From contig NZ_JQLN01000004.1 of assembly GCF_000744225.1 (NCBI RefSeq), positions 124,001-188,000 of the forward strand: a stretch of DNA of 64,000 nucleotides, in the 5' to 3' direction. Positions 30,150 to 40,780 of this stretch are shown here, in pieces. The notes under the pieces were generated by a model. The model made no database searches. It was not told the origin of the DNA and saw only the letters and a program-made list of their open reading frames with translations. Position numbers and translations under genes: made by a program. This DNA comes from Kitasatospora mediocidica KCTC 9733 (lineage in GTDB: Bacteria; Actinomycetota; Actinomycetes; Streptomycetales; Streptomycetaceae). Every line of letters starts with the position of its first letter. The stretch's first letter is position 1.

Positions 30150-30204
30150 GCCGTGTCTGACAATTCCCGCCGGGCCCGCGACGCGAATCGTCAGACACGG
30201 CCTA
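30147..30204. mobile_element. 58-bp MITE-like palindrome with 15-bp terminal inverted repeats
   Basis: Terminal repeats TAGGCCGTGTCTGAC (30147-30161) and the exact complement (30190-30204) enclose 28 bases whose symmetry continues imperfectly. TA flanks the GGCC ends on both sides, as expected for a TA target duplication. One end of 27 bases recurs with one difference at 52057-52083. It has no coding capacity. The left end supplies the stop codon of the GNAT gene and the right end carries the TGA that ends the leftward ArsR gene. It may now act as a bidirectional terminator. Confidence 0.8.
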
Positions 30205-31183
30205 GTGCCGACTGGGCCCGGACCAGGGTCTCGCCGACGTCCGTCCGGTAGTAGAGCACCGAGCGTCCGGCGCGGCGGCGCCCGACCAGTCGGGCGTCCA
30301 GCAGGACCTTGAGGTGGCGGCCGACCGAGCCGAGCCCCTGGCCGGTCAGGGCGACCAGCTGGGTGGTGCTCTTCGGGGCGTCCAGCAGGACCAGGACGCC
30401 CGCCCGGGCGGGGCCGAGCAGCGCGCCCAGCGCCTCGGGCGGCTGCGCCCGGTCCGCGCCGGCCAGCACCCCCGCACACGGGTACACCACCGCGTAGCGG
30501 GGGCCGAAGGCGGGCAGCGCGTCCCAGGAGACCCAGCCCCGGCGCGGGGTGATCGGGACGAAGAGCAGCTGTGCCCCGGAGATCTCCCGGGGCGGGTAGT
30601 CGTGGCCGTTGATCTGGAGCCGCCCCTCCCCCAGCCAGCGCATCCCCGGGCGCATGTCGTCCAGCGCCGCCGCCCAGCCGCCCTGGCTCAACTGGGCCGT
30701 GCGGGCGACGACATCGGCCTCCATGACGCGTCGGCGTCGCGGCCAGTACGGCAGGACCGTCTCCGTCCACACCCATTGCAGCAGGTCGGCCGCACGCTGC
30801 GGCAGATCGGACCGGCGCAACAGGGCTGGCAACGCGCCACCATGAGACACCGTCAGATGATCGAGGGCCTCCTCGGGCGGCGTCCGGCGGATCCGCGCCA
30901 GCTCCTCGTCGAAGGTCTGCTCGCCCCGGCCGCTCGGCGTGGGGGTGAGGAAGTCCGCGTTCCAGACGCCGCCCAGCCCGACCCTGACGAGCTGCGCGGT
31001 GACCGGGTCCTCGGCCAACCGCGCCCGGTGCGCGCCCTGGTGGGCGTCCAGCCAGCCGCGCTCACCCGGGTGGGCGGCGCGTCCCCACTCCAGGTCCATC
31101 AGGCTCGCGACGGTCTCGGCGACGGGCGACAGCACGAACCGGCTGCTCACCAGGGTGTCCGCGTTGACCTGCCACAACCCCAT
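30191..31183 (-). CDS. ArsR-family regulator with N-terminal DUF5937-like domain
   Basis: A 330-residue protein. The C-terminal 75 residues form an ArsR winged helix (LGALLGPARAGVLVLLDAPKSTTQLVALTGQGLGSVGRHLKVLLDARLVGRRRAGRSVLYYRTDVG). The N-terminal 230 residues (SRFVLSPVAETVASLMDLEW onward) correspond to the large domain (DUF5937 type) found in many actinobacterial ArsR proteins. It is divergent from an MFS transporter, a very common pairing in which it represses the pump. Its stop lies inside the right repeat of the adjacent palindromic element. Confidence 0.88.
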   Translation of the reverse strand: MGLWQVNADTLVSSRFVLSPVAETVASLMDLEWGRAAHPGERGWLDAHQGAHRARLAEDPVTAQLVRVGLGGVWNADFLTPTPSGRGEQTFDEELARIRRTPPEEALDHLTVSHGGALPALLRRSDLPQRAADLLQWVWTETVLPYWPRRRRVMEADVVARTAQLSQGGWAAALDDMRPGMRWLGEGRLQINGHDYPPREISGAQLLFVPITPRRGWVSWDALPAFGPRYAVVYPCAGVLAGADRAQPPEALGALLGPARAGVLVLLDAPKSTTQLVALTGQGLGSVGRHLKVLLDARLVGRRRAGRSVLYYRTDVGETLVRAQSALGRV

Positions 31184-31267
31184 CGCCCGCTCCTCCCCCA
31201 GCTCCCGTTGTTTCGCCGCCGCGCGAAAGAGTAACGCCCCTCGGGGCAGGCCGCCGAGACTCTCGGC

Positions 31268-32464
31268 ATGCGCACTTACCAGGAACTCTTCCGCACGCCG
31301 GAGTTCACGCCGTACTTCCTCGCCTCCTCGCTCCAGGTGGCGGCTTCGACGGTCGCCGGGCCGGCCCTCGGCACCCTCATCTACTCCTCGACCGGCTCCC
31401 CGCTGCTCTCCGCGCTCGCGATGTTCGGCCCCTCGCTCGCCCAGGTGGTCGGCGCGACCACGCTGTTGTCGGCGGCCGACCGGCTGCCGCCGCGCGCGGC
31501 GCTGACCGGCATCGCGGTGCTGTTCGGCCTCGGCGACGCCGCCCAGGCCATCCCCGGCCTGCCGGTGTGGGCCGCCTTCACCGTGCTCCTCGCGCTCGGG
31601 ACACTCGCCTCGCTGGGCGGCGGAGTGCGCTACGGACTGCTCAACGAGATCCTCTCCAAGCAGGGTTACCTGCTCGGCCGCTCGGTGCTCAACATGTCGG
31701 TCGGCCTGGTCCAGATCTGCGGATACGCGGCCGGCGGGGTGCTGGTGTCGACCGTGTCACCGCGCGGCACGCTGCTGGTCGGCGCCGCGCTGGGCCTGGC
31801 CGCCGCGGCCGTCGCCCGGAGCGGCCTGAGCCGACGGGCGCCGCGCGCCACCGGCCGGCCGTCCGTCGCGCAGACCTGGCGAACCAACGCGCTTCTGTGG
31901 TCGTCCACTTCGCGACGCTACGTGTTCCTCGCCCTCTGGGTCCCCAACGGGCTGATCGTCGGCTGCGAGTCCCTCTTCATCCCGTACGATCCCCGGCACG
32001 CCGGGGCGCTGTTCGCCTTCGCCGCGCTCGGCATGCTGATCGGGGACACCCTCACCGGCCGCTTCCTGCCCGCGCGTTGGAAGGCACGGCTCGGGTCGCC
32101 GCTGCGGCTGCTGCTCGCCGTCCCCTATCTGGCCTTCGCGCTGCGCCCGGCGCTGCCGCTCGCCGTGGCAGCCGTCGTCCTCGCCTCGGTCGGCTACTCG
32201 GCCAGCCTGCTGCTCCAGGAGCGCCTGATGGCCCTGACGCCGGACGAGTTGAGCGGACAGGCACTGGGCCTGCACTCCTCCGGGATGCTCACCATGCAGG
32301 GCGTGGGCGCCGCGGTCGCCGGAGCCGTCGCCGGGCGGACCTCCCCCGCAACGGCGATGGCGTGCGTGGCGGCGGTCTCGGTGGCGGTCACGCTGGCCCT
32401 CGCGCCCGGCCTGCGGGCCCGGCCGGCCGCGCAGGTACCCGCGAGCGATCGGGTGGCGGCGTAG
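31268..32464 (+). CDS. MFS transporter
   Basis: A 398-residue membrane protein with about twelve helices and Gly-rich transmembrane segments (VFTVLL-like stretches, LVGAALGLAAAAVARSGLSR, LFAFAALGMLIGDTLTGRFL). It belongs to the DHA-like efflux branch that usually sits beside DUF5937/ArsR regulators. It is divergent from that regulator by 84 bases and is followed at once by a terminator hairpin, so it is a single-gene unit. Substrate unknown; drug or metabolite export is the usual role. Confidence 0.88.
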   Translation: MRTYQELFRTPEFTPYFLASSLQVAASTVAGPALGTLIYSSTGSPLLSALAMFGPSLAQVVGATTLLSAADRLPPRAALTGIAVLFGLGDAAQAIPGLPVWAAFTVLLALGTLASLGGGVRYGLLNEILSKQGYLLGRSVLNMSVGLVQICGYAAGGVLVSTVSPRGTLLVGAALGLAAAAVARSGLSRRAPRATGRPSVAQTWRTNALLWSSTSRRYVFLALWVPNGLIVGCESLFIPYDPRHAGALFAFAALGMLIGDTLTGRFLPARWKARLGSPLRLLLAVPYLAFALRPALPLAVAAVVLASVGYSASLLLQERLMALTPDELSGQALGLHSSGMLTMQGVGAAVAGAVAGRTSPATAMACVAAVSVAVTLALAPGLRARPAAQVPASDRVAA

Positions 32465-32500: not shown

Positions 32501-33274
32501 CTACGCGAACTTGGCCTTGCCCGGGCCGTCCTCGACGAAGCTGCGCATGCCGGTGTCGCGGTCCTCGGTGGCGAAGAGGCCGGCGAAGAGCGTGCGCTCC
32601 AGGGCGAGGCCGGAGTCGATGTCGCTCTCCAGGCCGCGGTCCACGGCCTCCTTGGCCGCGCGCAGCGCCCAGGCGGGGCCGGTGGCCAGCTTGCCGGCCC
32701 AGGCCAGCGCGGCGGAGTAGACCTCCTCGGCGGGGACGACCTGGTCCACCAGGCCGATCCGCAGCGCCTCGTCGGCGCGCACCATGCGGCCGGTGAAGAT
32801 CAGGTCCTTCGTCTTGGCCGGGCCGACCAGGCGCGCCAGGCGCTGGGTGCCGCCGGCGCCGGGGATCAGGCCGAGCAGGATCTCCGGCTGGCCGAGCTTG
32901 GCGTTGTCGCCGGCGATCCGGATGTCCGCGCAGAGCGCCAACTCGCAGCCGCCGCCCAGCGCGTAGCCGGTCACGGCGGCCACCACCGGCTTGGGGATCC
33001 GGGCCACCGCGGTGAACGCGTCCTGCAGGGCCCCGCCGCGCTGCACCATGTCGGTGTACGACATGCGCTGCATCTCCTTGATGTCGGCGCCCGCCGCGAA
33101 CACCTTCTCGCCGCCGTAGATCACCACGGCCCGCACGTCGGCCCGGGCGGCGGCCTCCTCGGCGACCTCCTTGAGCTGGTCCTGCATGGCCACGTCGAGG
33201 GCGTTCATCGGCGGCCGGGCCAGCCGGATGGTGCCGACGGCGTCCTCGACGTCCAGGGTGACGAACCGCGTCAT
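32501..33274 (-). CDS. Enoyl-CoA hydratase/isomerase family protein
   Basis: A 257-residue crotonase-fold enzyme acting on acyl-CoA thioesters. The oxyanion-hole segments FAAGADIKEM and VTGYALGGGCELALCADIRI are intact, and the catalytic region PEILLGLIPGAGGTQRLARLVG keeps the Glu of the hydratase-type active site. The usual role is beta-oxidation (hydration of 2-enoyl-CoA). GGAGG precedes the ATG. A short GTTAA/TTAAC inverted repeat lies 19 bases upstream of the start. Confidence 0.9.
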   Translation of the reverse strand: MTRFVTLDVEDAVGTIRLARPPMNALDVAMQDQLKEVAEEAAARADVRAVVIYGGEKVFAAGADIKEMQRMSYTDMVQRGGALQDAFTAVARIPKPVVAAVTGYALGGGCELALCADIRIAGDNAKLGQPEILLGLIPGAGGTQRLARLVGPAKTKDLIFTGRMVRADEALRIGLVDQVVPAEEVYSAALAWAGKLATGPAWALRAAKEAVDRGLESDIDSGLALERTLFAGLFATEDRDTGMRSFVEDGPGKAKFA

Positions 33275-33292
33275 GGCGAATCCTCCAGAGCT

Positions 33293-33308
33293 GTTAAGCG
33301 GCGTTAAC
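33293..33308 (-). promoter_or_regulatory. Candidate operator before the enoyl-CoA hydratase gene
   Basis: GTTAAGCGGCGTTAAC: inverted GTTAA/TTAAC with a 6-base centre, next to the ribosome binding site of the leftward gene. A/T-rich palindromes stand out in this DNA. The regulator is unknown. Confidence 0.35.
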
Positions 33309-33345
33309 TATCCTGAACTCCAGAGACTAGCGGTCCATCAGCTGC

Positions 33346-33379
33346 TAGCGTGACCCCCATGTTCCTCCCCCGTGCATAG
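33346..33379 (+). CDS. Leaderless six-codon upstream ORF before an MFS pump
   Basis: TAGCGT (-10, 33346-33351) lies 7 bases before ATG at 33359, which opens the ORF Met-Phe-Leu-Pro-Arg-Ala-stop (33359-33379). The MFS gene starts 102 bases later at its own ribosome binding site (CGAGGAA). The space between can fold: CGCCGG near 33400 pairs with CCGGCG near 33447. The layout resembles translation-attenuation leaders of antibiotic-inducible resistance genes in actinobacteria. Expression of the peptide is inferred, not shown. Confidence 0.45.
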
Positions 33380-33481
33380 GACCCGCCCCGCGACCGCACC
33401 CGCGCCGGCCCCCTTGGGCCAGAGCCGCTGCGGCGCCCCGGCGTCCTTGCACCTTCCCTCCGCACGTCGAGGAACATTCCC

Positions 33482-34657
33482 ATGTCTTCTTCCCCCTCCT
33501 ATCGCGCTGTCCTGCGCGCGCCGCAGGCCGCCCGCACCTTCGGCGCCGCTCTCGTCGGCCGGCTCTCCTACGGGACGGTCTCCCTCTCGCTCACCCTCAC
33601 CATCGCCCGCTCCACCGGCTCCTACGCCGCCACCGGGGGCGTGCTGGCGATGTTCGGGCTCACCATCGCCCTGCTCTCGCCGGTCCGGGCCGGTCTGATC
33701 GACCGGCACGGGCCGCGCCGGGCGCTGCCGCCGATGGCGCTGCTGTACGCGGCGGCACTGCTCGGGCTGACCGTGGCGCACGGCGCGGCGCTGGCCGCGC
33801 TGGCGCTCGCCGCCGGGGCCGTCGCTCCCCCGCTGGGCCCGGTGATGCGTGGACTGTGGAGCGAACTGCTGCCACAGGAAGGGCTGTTGCAGCGGGCCTA
33901 CAGTCTGGACACGGTCGCCGAGGAGCTGCTCTACGTCGGCGGACCGCTGCTCGTCGGGCTGATCGGGCCCACGCCCGGCCTGCTGCTGAGCGCCACGCTG
34001 GTGCTCACCGGGACGCTCGCACTGGTCGGCGCACCGGTCGCCCGGGCGCCCCGGCCGCGCGCGGCGGCCGCCGGACGCGGCGGCGGGCTGGTGCCCGGGA
34101 TCGGACGTCCGGTGGCGGTGACCGCCGCGCTGGGCGTGGGTCTGGGCGCGCTCGGCCTGCTGATGATCTCCGCCGGGCACGGACGGCCGGGCGCGGTCGC
34201 CTGGCTGGAGGCGGCGCTGGCCACCGGCAGCGCGCTCGGTGGCCTGGCGTACGGCGCGGTGCGTTGGCGGCGGCCGGCCCAGGTGCGGCTGGCCCTGGTG
34301 GCGACCGGGCTGGGCGCGGTGCTGGCGGTCAGCGGGCTCGCGCCCGGGCTGGGCGGCTTGGCGGTACTGGTCGGCCTGGCCGGGCTCTTCGTCAGCCCGG
34401 CGCTGGCCACCGCCTATCTGGTCGCGGACGAGTGCGCCGCGCCCGAGCACCGCACCCGGGCGGGAGCCTGGGTGAACACCGCGTTCAACGCGGGCTCGAC
34501 GGCGGGCACCGCGGCGGCCGGGTTGGCCACCGGCGCCCTGCCGCCGATCGCCTGCTTCGCCCTGGCCGCCGTCCCGCTGCTGGCCGTCGGGACGGCGCCC
34601 CTGTTGGCGGGGAGGGCGCCGCGACCGGCCCGAGCGGCTACGGCGCCGTCGTCGTGA
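33482..34657 (+). CDS. MFS transporter (efflux type)
   Basis: A 391-residue integral membrane protein with about twelve helices, starting MSSSPSYRAVLRAPQAARTF. The loop between helices 2 and 3 reads RAGLIDRHGPRRALPP, a form of the MFS loop motif. Poly-Gly/Ala/Leu helices and TRAGAWVNTAFNAGSTAGTA near residue 330 fit drug-efflux-type MFS proteins. It is preceded by a short upstream ORF that may control it. Its last 20 bases overlap the end of bioF on the opposite strand. Confidence 0.87.
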   Translation: MSSSPSYRAVLRAPQAARTFGAALVGRLSYGTVSLSLTLTIARSTGSYAATGGVLAMFGLTIALLSPVRAGLIDRHGPRRALPPMALLYAAALLGLTVAHGAALAALALAAGAVAPPLGPVMRGLWSELLPQEGLLQRAYSLDTVAEELLYVGGPLLVGLIGPTPGLLLSATLVLTGTLALVGAPVARAPRPRAAAAGRGGGLVPGIGRPVAVTAALGVGLGALGLLMISAGHGRPGAVAWLEAALATGSALGGLAYGAVRWRRPAQVRLALVATGLGAVLAVSGLAPGLGGLAVLVGLAGLFVSPALATAYLVADECAAPEHRTRAGAWVNTAFNAGSTAGTAAAGLATGALPPIACFALAAVPLLAVGTAPLLAGRAPRPARAATAPSS

Positions 34658-38475: not shown

Positions 38476-39312
38476 TCAGCCCCAGACGAAGGCGTCCGAG
38501 GCGGTGTACGAGGTGGCCCAGGTGGCGTCCAGCAGCTGCTGGTCCGGGGTGGCCGCCGTGCCGCTGGTGCCGTCCGCGAACCGGGAGGTCGCCACGGTCA
38601 CGTAGTGGTGCACCGCCTCGGTGCGCGCGACCGGCTTCTGGTGCTGCGGATCGGCGGCCGGCGAGGGCGCCGCGATCGTGGCGTCCGGCTGCATGAAGGC
38701 CAGCAAGCCCGGCTGCGCGTTCAGTTGGTCGGCCACCCGCTGGCTGGTGGCGTCGTCGCCGAACCGCAGGATGGTGACGCTGGACAGCACCTTGCCGTCG
38801 GGGGTGCGGCTGAAGCTGACCGTCAGGTAACCCTGGCAGCCGGTGCTCTGGAAGACGTTCTTCGTCCGGTCCTGGAGCGTCTCGGCACAGTCGCTGCCCT
38901 GCCGTACGCCGGAGCGCTTGGCGTGGTAGCCGTTCAGGTCGATCGGCCGGGCGACCGGGAAGTAGCGGTCCACGGTGAACGGGTTGGGGTCGGCGGCCGA
39001 GGTCGGCGGCGGGTTTCCGACCACCGGCGGCGTCCGGTCGGCGTCCTTGCTGGAGGGGCCGAGACCGGGCACCCAGTCGCCCGGGTTGGGCAGGGTGACC
39101 ACGAACCCGATCGCGCCGACCGCCACCACCGCGGCCGCCCAGCCGGCCATCCGCAGCGGGGTGGGGCGCCGACCGGTTCTGGAGGCTCTGCCCCAGTCCG
39201 GGCCGTGGTTCTGACTGTGCCCCAGCCCGCCGCCCTGGCCGGGTTCCTGTGGGCGTTCCGGTCCGTCGTCGGCGCGTGCGGGTATCGGGTGGGATTCCCC
39301 CTGCGTGGTCAT
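38476..39312 (-). CDS. Single-pass membrane protein of unknown function
   Basis: A 278-residue protein. The cytoplasmic N-terminus of about 60 residues is hydrophilic, a single helix follows ([21 protein letters not shown]), then about 195 extracytoplasmic residues with a Pro-rich stretch and two cysteines (GSDCAETLQ and [14 protein letters not shown]) that may form a disulfide. TAGAAT (minus strand, 39320-39325) lies 7 bases before the ATG, indicating a leaderless mRNA. It is divergent from bioB. The family appears to be actinobacterial; the function is not recognised. Confidence 0.75.
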
Positions 39313-39487
39313 GGCGCAGATTCTAGGGGGACACCCGACAGCCCAGGTCAGCAGCCCTACTCCAGGAATAGGACGTCCCCGTACCAACGGCGCGCAGTGG
39401 GACTGTGACAACTCGCACACCCGAGGAGCGATCTTCTGGCGGATTCCCTCTGGCGCCACCCGAGGTCGTCCGGGCAGGATTCACAGC

Positions 39488-40780
39488 ATGGATCTGCTTG
39501 ACACCCTCACTGCAAAGGGCCTGCGCCGCGAGCTCCCCACCCGGGAGGAGGCGCTGGCCGTCCTGGCCACCACCGACGACGAGTTGCTGGACGTGGTCGC
39601 GGCCGCCGGGCGGGTCCGCCGACAGTGGTTCGGCCGCCGGGTCAAGCTCAACTACCTGGTGAACCTCAAGAGCGGCCTCTGCCCGGAGGACTGCTCCTAC
39701 TGTTCCCAGCGGCTGGGCTCGAAGGCCGAGATCCTCAAGTACACCTGGCTGAAGCCGGATCAGGCCGCCGAGGCCGCGGCCGCCGGGGTCGCCGGTGGCG
39801 CGAAGCGGGTCTGCATGGTGGCCAGCGGGCGCGGCCCGACGGACCGCGACATCGACCGGGTCACCGACACCATCGCCGCGATCAAGGACCAGGACCCGGC
39901 CGTCGAGATCTGCGTCTGCCTGGGTCTGCTCTCCGACAACCAGGCCGAGCGGCTGGCCGCGGCCGGCGCCGACGCGTACAACCACAACCTCAACACCTCC
40001 GAGAACACCTACGGCACCATCACCAAGACCCACACCTACGCCGACCGGGTCGACACGGTGAACAAGGCGCACGGCGCCGGCCTCTCCGCCTGCTCGGGCC
40101 TGATCGCCGGTATGGGCGAGAGCGCCGAGGACCTGGTGGACGTGGTCTTCTCGCTGCGGGAGCTGAACCCGGACTCGGTGCCGGTGAACTTCCTGATCCC
40201 GTTCGAGGGCACCCCGCTGGCCAAGGAGTGGAACCTCACCCCGCAGCACTGCCTGCGGATCCTGGCGATGGTCCGGTTCGTCTGCCCGGACGTCGAGGTG
40301 CGGATCGCCGGCGGGCGCGAGGTGCACCTGCGCACCATGCAGCCGCTGGGGCTGCACATCGCCAACTCGATCTTCCTGGGCGACTACCTGACCAGCGAGG
40401 GCCAGGCCGGCCAGGCCGACCTCGACATGATCGCGGACGCCGGGTTCGAGGTCGAGGGCACCGGCCAGGTGACGCTGCCCCGGCACCGCTCGGAGGCGGC
40501 CGGCGGCGGGTGCGGCAGCCACGGCGAGAGCGCCGGCGGGTGCGGCGGCCACGGCGCCGAGCCGGCCGAGGCCGAGGGCACGGGCGGCGGCTGCGGCGGT
40601 CACAGCGGTGGCGGCTGCGGGCCGTGCGGCGGATCCGCTCCGGTCACTGCAGCCGCTGCGGCCGCTCCGGCCGAGGAGGCCTCCTCGGCCGACGAGGCGG
40701 CGGAGAGCGACGAGCTCCGCTCCGACCTGGTCCGGGTGCGCCGCCGCGGCGCGGGCACCACGCTCGCACCGAACGCCTGA
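39488..40780 (+). CDS. bioB: Biotin synthase with Cys/His-rich C-terminal tail
   Basis: Radical-SAM biotin synthase (430 aa) that inserts sulfur into dethiobiotin. The CPEDCSYC motif (Cys65, Cys69, Cys72) holds the SAM-binding 4Fe-4S cluster. [15 protein letters not shown] and the [2Fe-2S] region ([22 protein letters not shown]) are conserved. The family length is about 320-350; here residues 338-430 form a tail with three CG(S/G)H units and CGPC (five Cys, Gly-rich), then an Ala/Glu region ending [17 protein letters not shown] lies before the ATG. It is the first gene of bioB-bioA-bioD. Confidence 0.96.

Follow-up and report, generated by a model that had tools for sequence, protein, structure and literature searches.

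Leader layout and transporter at the Kitasatospora locus

In the window (the whole 64,000-nucleotide stretch of Kitasatospora mediocidica DNA that was analysed), a gene for an MFS transporter follows a compact leader with a -10-like element, a six-codon upstream reading frame (uORF), several predicted helices and a Shine-Dalgarno (SD) sequence for the transporter gene (Table 1). The transporter, called the pump below, comprises 391 amino acids and was assigned to the Pfam family MFS_1 (E 6.5e-18). Its AlphaFold model (pLDDT 83.7) found its best PDB match in NorA (TM 0.70) and also matched monocarboxylate, oxalate and vesicular amine carriers, i.e. the generic MFS fold; the protein showed no NCBIfam match, and its family profile matched no PDB sequence up to E 0.01. 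By family and predicted fold the pump is an MFS transporter, and we infer that it exports drugs.

The pump adjoins bioF and an enoyl-CoA hydratase gene. Elsewhere in the window, an ORF at 39305-40780 appears by eye to be biotin synthase-like and carries a Cys/Gly/His-rich C-terminal extension. A second MFS gene (31268-32464, Pfam MFS_1, within 30191-32464) is divergent from a gene for a possible ArsR/DUF5937-like regulator, whose family scores lie below the Pfam cut-offs.

Table 1. Features of the leader (window positions) and loci of the second leader type
Feature	Position	Strand	Basis or remark
-10-like element TAGCGT	33346-33351	+	Read from sequence; same geometry in relatives
Spacer GACCCCC between -10-like element and uORF	33352-33358	+	Sequence
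Six-codon uORF ATGTTCCTCCCCCGTGCATAG, MFLPRA-stop, predicted leaderless	33359-33379	+	Sequence, conservation
P1 5' strand ATGTTCCTC, predicted anti-SD in uORF codons 1-3	33359-33367	+	Fold, covariation
P2 5' strand, uORF end (region of codons 5-6)	33371-33375	+	Partner in the MFE structure 33462-33466
P3 5' strand, AG from the uORF stop followed by GACCCG	33378-33385	+	Pairs with 33439-33447
P4, central hairpin	33390-33436	+	Predicted fold, covariation
P1 3' strand GAGGAACAT, contains the pump SD	33469-33477	+	Nine pairs with 33359-33367
Pump SD GAGGAAC	33469-33475	+	Sequence
MFS transporter gene after the leader	33482-34657	+	Pfam PF07690
Type-2 leaders, loci L149-L156, L160, L161, L171, L183-L194			Upstream of type-2 MFS genes

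An earlier note on this DNA had placed TAGCGT 7 bases ahead of the ATG of a short MFLPRA-stop frame and the pump start, with its own SD, 102 bases past that frame, with complementary GC-rich segments between the two. Both distances were confirmed base by base: the frame reads ATG TTC CTC CCC CGT GCA TAG, and 102 bases separate its stop codon from the pump ATG. The complementary segments are likewise real, as the RNA from 33359 to 33484 folds at -55.9 kcal/mol compared to -39.28 (sd 3.6) for 200 dinucleotide shuffles, none of which (0/200) reached so low a value (z -4.62).

Promoter geometry alone places the predicted transcription start at 33359, the first base of the uORF; no sigma-70-type site was called in 33250-33560. 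If the -10 assignment is right, the uORF has no SD of its own, with just GACCCCC in front of its ATG, which sets it outside the erm/cat-type attenuators in the strict sense.

The earlier note did not name one feature of the fold: the pump SD region, GAGGAACAT, and the start of the uORF, ATGTTCCTC, are reverse complements of each other. For the window leader as free RNA, the predicted probability that the pump SD is unpaired is 0.002. The partner of P2 differs between the single-sequence structure and the comparison with relatives, in which 33372-33376 would pair with 33448-33452. Membership in a known RNA family was dropped, as 33200-33600 gave 0 matches to Rfam covariance models up to E 5.

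Conservation of the six-codon reading frame

The pump was searched in 70 Kitasatospora-group genomes. Among the matches listed, 33/70 genomes had one of at least 55% identity, a few being partial or in pieces, and loci were obtained for 30 of these 33. All 30 carry the promoter-uORF arrangement, with six codons in 29 and seven in one, and peptides such as MFLPRA, MFLSRA, MFLFRA, MFLLRD, MFPTRD and MSFLCA. A pump-alignment search of a named genome collection provided a wider set, for which the best 80 of 296 relatives were kept; these partly overlap the genus set, and a few are copies of genus loci. They come mostly from Streptomyces, and also from Kitasatospora, Streptosporangium, Planotetraspora, Actinomadura, Actinoallomurus, Nonomuraea, Winogradskya and others. 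A uORF behind TANNNT precedes the pump in 80/80 of these best-matching loci. Lack of conservation of the six-codon ORF had been named in advance as a possible refutation; in these two overlapping sets the uORF is kept throughout.

These counts depend on picking rules that were set after inspection, requiring F or S as residue 2 for the first 30 loci and, for the named 80, ATG or GTG, 6-7 residues and A, D or V as the last residue. We therefore also report a free rule, which admits any of four start codons at 6-7 nt from TANNNT and a length of 3-14 residues, with no restriction on the last residue or the stop. It returned exactly one candidate per locus in 80/80, 79 with six residues and one with seven, starting with ATG (61) or GTG (19) and ending in A (72), V (6) or D (2). 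The strict promoter-plus-uORF pattern was found upstream of 79/80 orthologs, the miss being a seven-residue uORF (L108), compared to a mean of 0.06/80 (maximum 2) in shuffled sequences and 0/80 in relocated windows (50 rounds each).

After removal of 5 duplicates, 105 distinct leaders remained from 110. Their uORFs start with ATG (79) or GTG (26), stop with TAG (100) or TAA (5), and comprise six codons in 103 and one codon more in two (L006, L108). The distance from the end of TANNNT to the uORF is 7 nt in 84 leaders, 6 in 19 and 8 in two, counted under a picking rule that demanded TANNNT at 5-9 nt. The -35 region is weak, a loose pattern occurring in 9/105 leaders versus 1 in shuffles. A leaderless promoter geometry fits in the 105 leaders and predicts the uORF at the 5' end of the transcript.

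Among the 103 six-codon forms, position 2 is F in 84, position 3 is L in 82, and the last residue is A in 81, D in 16 and V in 6. Position 4 takes 11 different residues and position 5 may be R, L, C, M, F, S or W. As residues 2-5 vary, conservation mainly concerns pairing, length and frame and not one stalling peptide. A translated frame would be expected to look like this, with frame and length fixed while start codons, and likewise stop codons, exchange among themselves. The six varied codons showed no enrichment for a sensed amino acid; MFLLLA has three Leu, many other forms do not. A match between the type of start codon and the SD flank was also considered and gave no clear relation.

The reading frame as a predicted anti-Shine-Dalgarno sequence

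The predicted pairing extends across the whole set. The MFE structure pairs at least 4/6 SD bases with the uORF in 105/105 distinct leaders, and P2, formed by the end of the uORF with bases further inside, has at least 3 pairs in 102/105, the misses being L066, L084 and L093. The probability of SD:uORF pairing exceeds 0.5 in 102/105 and 0.9 in 81/105 leaders, while it falls below 0.5 in L020, L026 and L080; after shuffling of the first 24 nt, 10% of 315 shuffles exceeded 0.5. In the shortest leaders, L096 and L108, the SD lies 64 and 67 nt, respectively, from where the uORF starts; L096 folds into just P1, P2 and a single hairpin and offers a minimal version of the structure that occurs naturally.

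Each uORF also fits its own SD. The mean duplex energy was -12.06 kcal/mol compared to -11.12 (sd 0.13) for swapped partners, with 0/10,000 permutations as low; as the leaders share descent, these permutations and the shuffles overstate independence. For 24 leaders with an SD other than GAGGAAC, the own uORF gave -12.4 kcal/mol, against an average of -9.7 for consensus uORFs. Compared with the median consensus uORF, 5/24 are exceptions, two doing worse (L030, L072) and three no better (L065, L070, L109). The variants illustrate how the complement follows the SD: in the leader encoding MTTPCA, TACTCCTT lies opposite GAGGAGTA, in that encoding MFSACA, GTTCTCCG lies opposite CGGGGAAC, and in those encoding MIHPRA and MLQPRA the complement is shifted to CCTCG opposite CGAGG.

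Covariation points in the same direction, although the CM-fitted alignments lean to the model and favour the structure, so that the following figures are supportive and not probabilities. Changes on both sides were found for 27/33 pairs with 65 distinct rows and for 28/33 with 90, and 84.0% and 83.3% of cells are paired, respectively. With 90 rows the covariation score was 0.227 versus 0.108 for shuffled alignments and at most 0.059 for slid structures; in both alignments it exceeds that of shuffles about twofold and that of slid structures by a factor of nearly four or more. Within the structure, the two helices of P3 have 85.1% and 75.2% of cells paired across 90 distinct relatives, and P4 has 81.3%, with changes on both sides in 7/9 pairs (90 rows). 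The inner pair of P2 is poorly supported, with column 20 unpaired in 62/90 rows. By these comparisons, selection appears to act on the SD:uORF pairing. Many soil actinomycetes retain the layout together with compensatory changes that match.

With bases 1-18 masked, or the uORF together with 12 nt, the mean predicted probability of an unpaired SD rose from 0.04 to 0.30. This is a partial opening, comparable to leaders with the first 24 nt shuffled (0.28). In these models the SD is inaccessible because of the uORF, and masking is not predicted to open it fully.

Linkage of the leader to the transporter

We also searched from the RNA side, using a covariance model built from the 30 genus leaders (R1) and a broader model (R2). 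R1 detected one leader each in 33/70 genus genomes, the same 33 for which a pump match of at least 55% identity was listed; the remaining 37 gave no hit at E <=0.05, under filters made stricter for the number of genomes. It recovered 66/80 named leaders at E <=1. Upon a renewed search for the 14 missed leaders, R1 gave weak matches in two, and two others (L111, L122) were strongly matched by R2, whereas L068, a copy of the training leader L004, was missed by both. As known leaders escape the RNA models, negative RNA searches carry little weight.

RNA-first searches matched 12/61 genomes in a family sample and, with R2, 5/98 in a class sample. Ten new loci came from these two samples, and all ten (10/10) have the uORF and the same transporter. 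Among the 33 genus matches and the 10 new loci, no leader stood beside other genes, in a search that is not exhaustive because the models lose real leaders. By contrast, the bioF and enoyl-CoA hydratase neighbours recur in the flanks (up to 2.5 kb) of just 2/80 named loci, and a link to biotin or fatty acids through these neighbours was dropped for that reason. Since the neighbours are not kept and the new loci all have the transporter, leader and transporter act as one unit.

A second leader type in the sister clade

Transporters at 38-45% identity, which form a sister clade, are preceded by a different uORF, mostly of seven codons (six to nine) and 6-7 nt behind TANNNT, with peptides such as MDISGPH, MYLSDPH, MFFSERH and MHLSGPH, each closed by a stop codon. 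Of 32 hand-picked paralog loci, 11 carry this type-2 uORF, one (L159) has a doubtful short uORF and 20 have none by pattern; in a family sample it was found in 12/12 type-2 orthologs. In most cases TCTCCGG or TCTCCGA within this uORF matches the pump SD, CCGGAGA or TCGGAGA. The predicted probability of SD:uORF pairing is above 0.5 in 20/21 type-2 loci, the exception (L191) being an SD mis-picked by the script. Type-1 uORFs against type-2 SDs gave -8.8 and the reverse combination -7.6, compared to -12.1 and -15.3 for the own pairs. A second, unrelated uORF with the same anti-SD design means that the design is more general than either peptide.

An RF1-specific termination signal was considered and rejected: TGA is absent from the type-1 stops (0/105), but the stops of 21 type-2 loci (one genome counted twice) are TGA in 16, TAG in 4 and TAA in one, and P3 includes a pair formed by the G of TAG.

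Other paralogs differ again. By eye, MFS genes about 36% identical (L157, L164, L169, L172-L175, L180) share a third leader, with an apparently SD-led ORF that starts ATGCCTGCG and seemingly extends into the start of the pump gene; GGTCC lies opposite the pump SD region GAAGGACC in several of these loci. Another group of MFS paralogs (L158, L162, L165-L167, L176-L179) has a common TTATACGTATAA palindrome just upstream, perhaps a repressor operator.

Proposed mechanism and alternative explanations

The uORF, its conservation, the SD:uORF pairing with its covariation and the linkage to the transporter clade are in silico findings. Very probably, the leader acts by translational attenuation: its leaderless uORF would serve as the anti-SD sequence, and the pump SD would be freed when a ribosome is held on this uORF. 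The earlier note had proposed a ribosome-sensed attenuation; the leaderless geometry, the conserved uORF and the foldable leader in front of an MFS gene bear out this build, and its mode can now be refined to translational, which is favoured because the pump SD is sequestered by the uORF and 33250-33560 holds no terminator-like site.

According to this proposal, the messenger would start at the AUG of the six-codon uORF, and a 70S ribosome would start on this leaderless AUG as the RNA emerges from RNA polymerase. The uORF would be transcribed about 110 nt ahead of the pump SD, leaving time for the leaderless 70S start. In unstressed cells, the ribosome would complete the six codons and depart, and the RNA would close: codons 1-3 would pair with the SD (P1) and the end of the uORF further in (P2), with P3, P4 and, in many relatives, also a hairpin P5 inside, so that uORF and SD would both be hidden. 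A ribosome held on the uORF, whether at start, elongation or stop, would occupy the P1 5' strand and keep the SD open, and the pump would be made. We infer this order of folding and the induction by ribosome inhibitors.

A different view of the same uORF is that it encodes a specific arrest peptide, selected as such, with one class of drugs arresting the ribosome at a defined codon according to the erm/cat logic. The MFL start of most leaders and the restriction of the last residue to A, D and V, free rule included, would fit. However, residues 2-5 vary, much of the constraint coincides with pairing in P1 and P2, MTTPCA, MIHPRA and MLQPRA retain the pairing and not the peptide, and the sister clade has an unrelated peptide, all of which makes this explanation rather doubtful. 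The tolerance at residues 2-5 and the second peptide type favour sensing of ribosome occupancy over a drug-specific arrest peptide.

The attenuator could also be real and the transporter not a drug pump but another exporter or an importer, with a different translation stress such as starvation as the signal. The database results for the pump (no NCBIfam match, no PDB sequence match at E 0.01, generic MFS folds alone) and its position next to bioF and the enoyl-CoA hydratase gene are compatible with such a role, but these neighbours are rarely kept, and ribosome-sensing leaders usually guard against ribosome inhibitors. We consider this explanation unlikely.

In transcription attenuation, as in wblC/whiB7 or ABC-F leaders, a stalled ribosome would block a terminator hairpin in the leader. 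A run of at least four T between the uORF (+20 nt) and the SD occurs in 9/105 leaders, including L064, where it follows a hairpin; it is missing in 96/105. The window leader also differs from the wblC/whiB7 or ARE5 type in that no terminator was called in it, and the SD lies at the end of the conserved long-range helix, which argues against this mode and leaves it very unlikely for the leaders as a whole. In L064 (Spongiactinospora) the last hairpin and the T run just upstream of the SD look by eye like an intrinsic terminator, so both transcription and translation attenuation may operate in some leaders of the Streptosporangiales; L139 has a T run too. Finally, a ribosome-independent RNA switch responding to a ligand or temperature, with an incidental uORF, would explain a fold that is strong by itself (z -4.62), but is barely plausible given that the free rule yields just ATG/GTG starts and six (once seven) residues in 80/80 loci, that the spacing from promoter to start codon is fixed, that the sister clade has a second uORF type and that Rfam gave no match up to E 5.

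Beyond the locus itself, it is quite possible, if somewhat short of probable, that the translational attenuator proposed here exemplifies a general, peptide-agnostic device of actinomycetes: a leaderless mini-ORF at the 5' end of the mRNA would be the anti-SD of the next gene, and any 70S ribosome trapped in the first codons, even at initiation, would switch this gene on. At least two types (MFLxRA/MFLLLA and MDISGPH/MHLSGPH, each with its stop) would control sister MFS clades, as a broad-spectrum sensor of ribosome occupancy and not a drug-specific arrest peptide.

Comparison with known leaders

Translational attenuators of the erm and cat type control inducible resistance genes with a sequestered SD, and their leader ORFs are SD-led and contain drug-specific arrest sites. 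Chloramphenicol MFS pumps of Streptomyces and Rhodococcus are inducible resistance genes as well. Two features of attenuators of the erm/cat/toiL kind are present in our leader, namely a short uORF upstream and, in silico, a sequestered SD.

The toiL leader of the E. coli topAI-yjhQ operon works in nearly the proposed way. It has an eight-codon uORF starting 139 nt upstream, with internal sequences predicted to base-pair with the ribosome-binding site downstream; a ribosome stalled at any point in the uORF is proposed to unmask this site, and several drug classes act (PMC12121999). It differs in having its own SD, in preceding a toxin-antitoxin operon and in involving Rho, whereas the present uORF is predicted to be leaderless, has six codons and stands ahead of actinomycete MFS genes; the two were compared by description and not aligned.

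Very short uORFs (MR[I/M], MIN, MK[L/Q] and MAGN) are likewise described for the ABC-F leaders cplR, vmlR, vmlR2 and lsaA, but these are Firmicutes leaders of ABC-F genes; in cplR stalling makes the SD accessible, and translational and transcriptional attenuation are combined (PMC10201436). The Streptomyces ARE5 leaders are5sc and tiaA are actinomycete antibiotic-responsive uORFs as well, on which LSAP drugs stall ribosomes at start codons; they differ by their own ribosome-binding sites, a terminator with anti-terminator and ABC-F genes downstream (PMC12421871). Drugs that stall at start codons are reported to act on other very short uORFs (PMC12421871, PMC12121999).

Leaderless uORFs that follow a TAnnnT -10 element are also described for the leader peptides of S. 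lividans amino-acid attenuators (PMC8079986) and for mycobacterial poly-cysteine uORFs (Canestrari 2020), the latter termed translation attenuation (PMC13236596), but these sense amino acids by codon content. The available part of Table 4 of PMC8079986 has no MFS gene. We recognised no description of the present leader in the open-access literature, and an earlier account is possible. Overall, the kind is known from E. coli toiL and the short ABC-F leaders, and what appears to be new is an anti-SD form that is leaderless, tolerates different peptides and precedes MFS genes.

If the proposal holds, the leader would be a widespread compact resistance switch in the makers of many antibiotics, with sensor and repressing strand merged in 21 nt. 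Regulation by leaderless initiation complexes would become directly testable, and the leader would readily serve as a reporter of ribosome trapping by drugs at an early stage. It would also point to an uncharacterised transporter clade that likely faces ribosome inhibitors.
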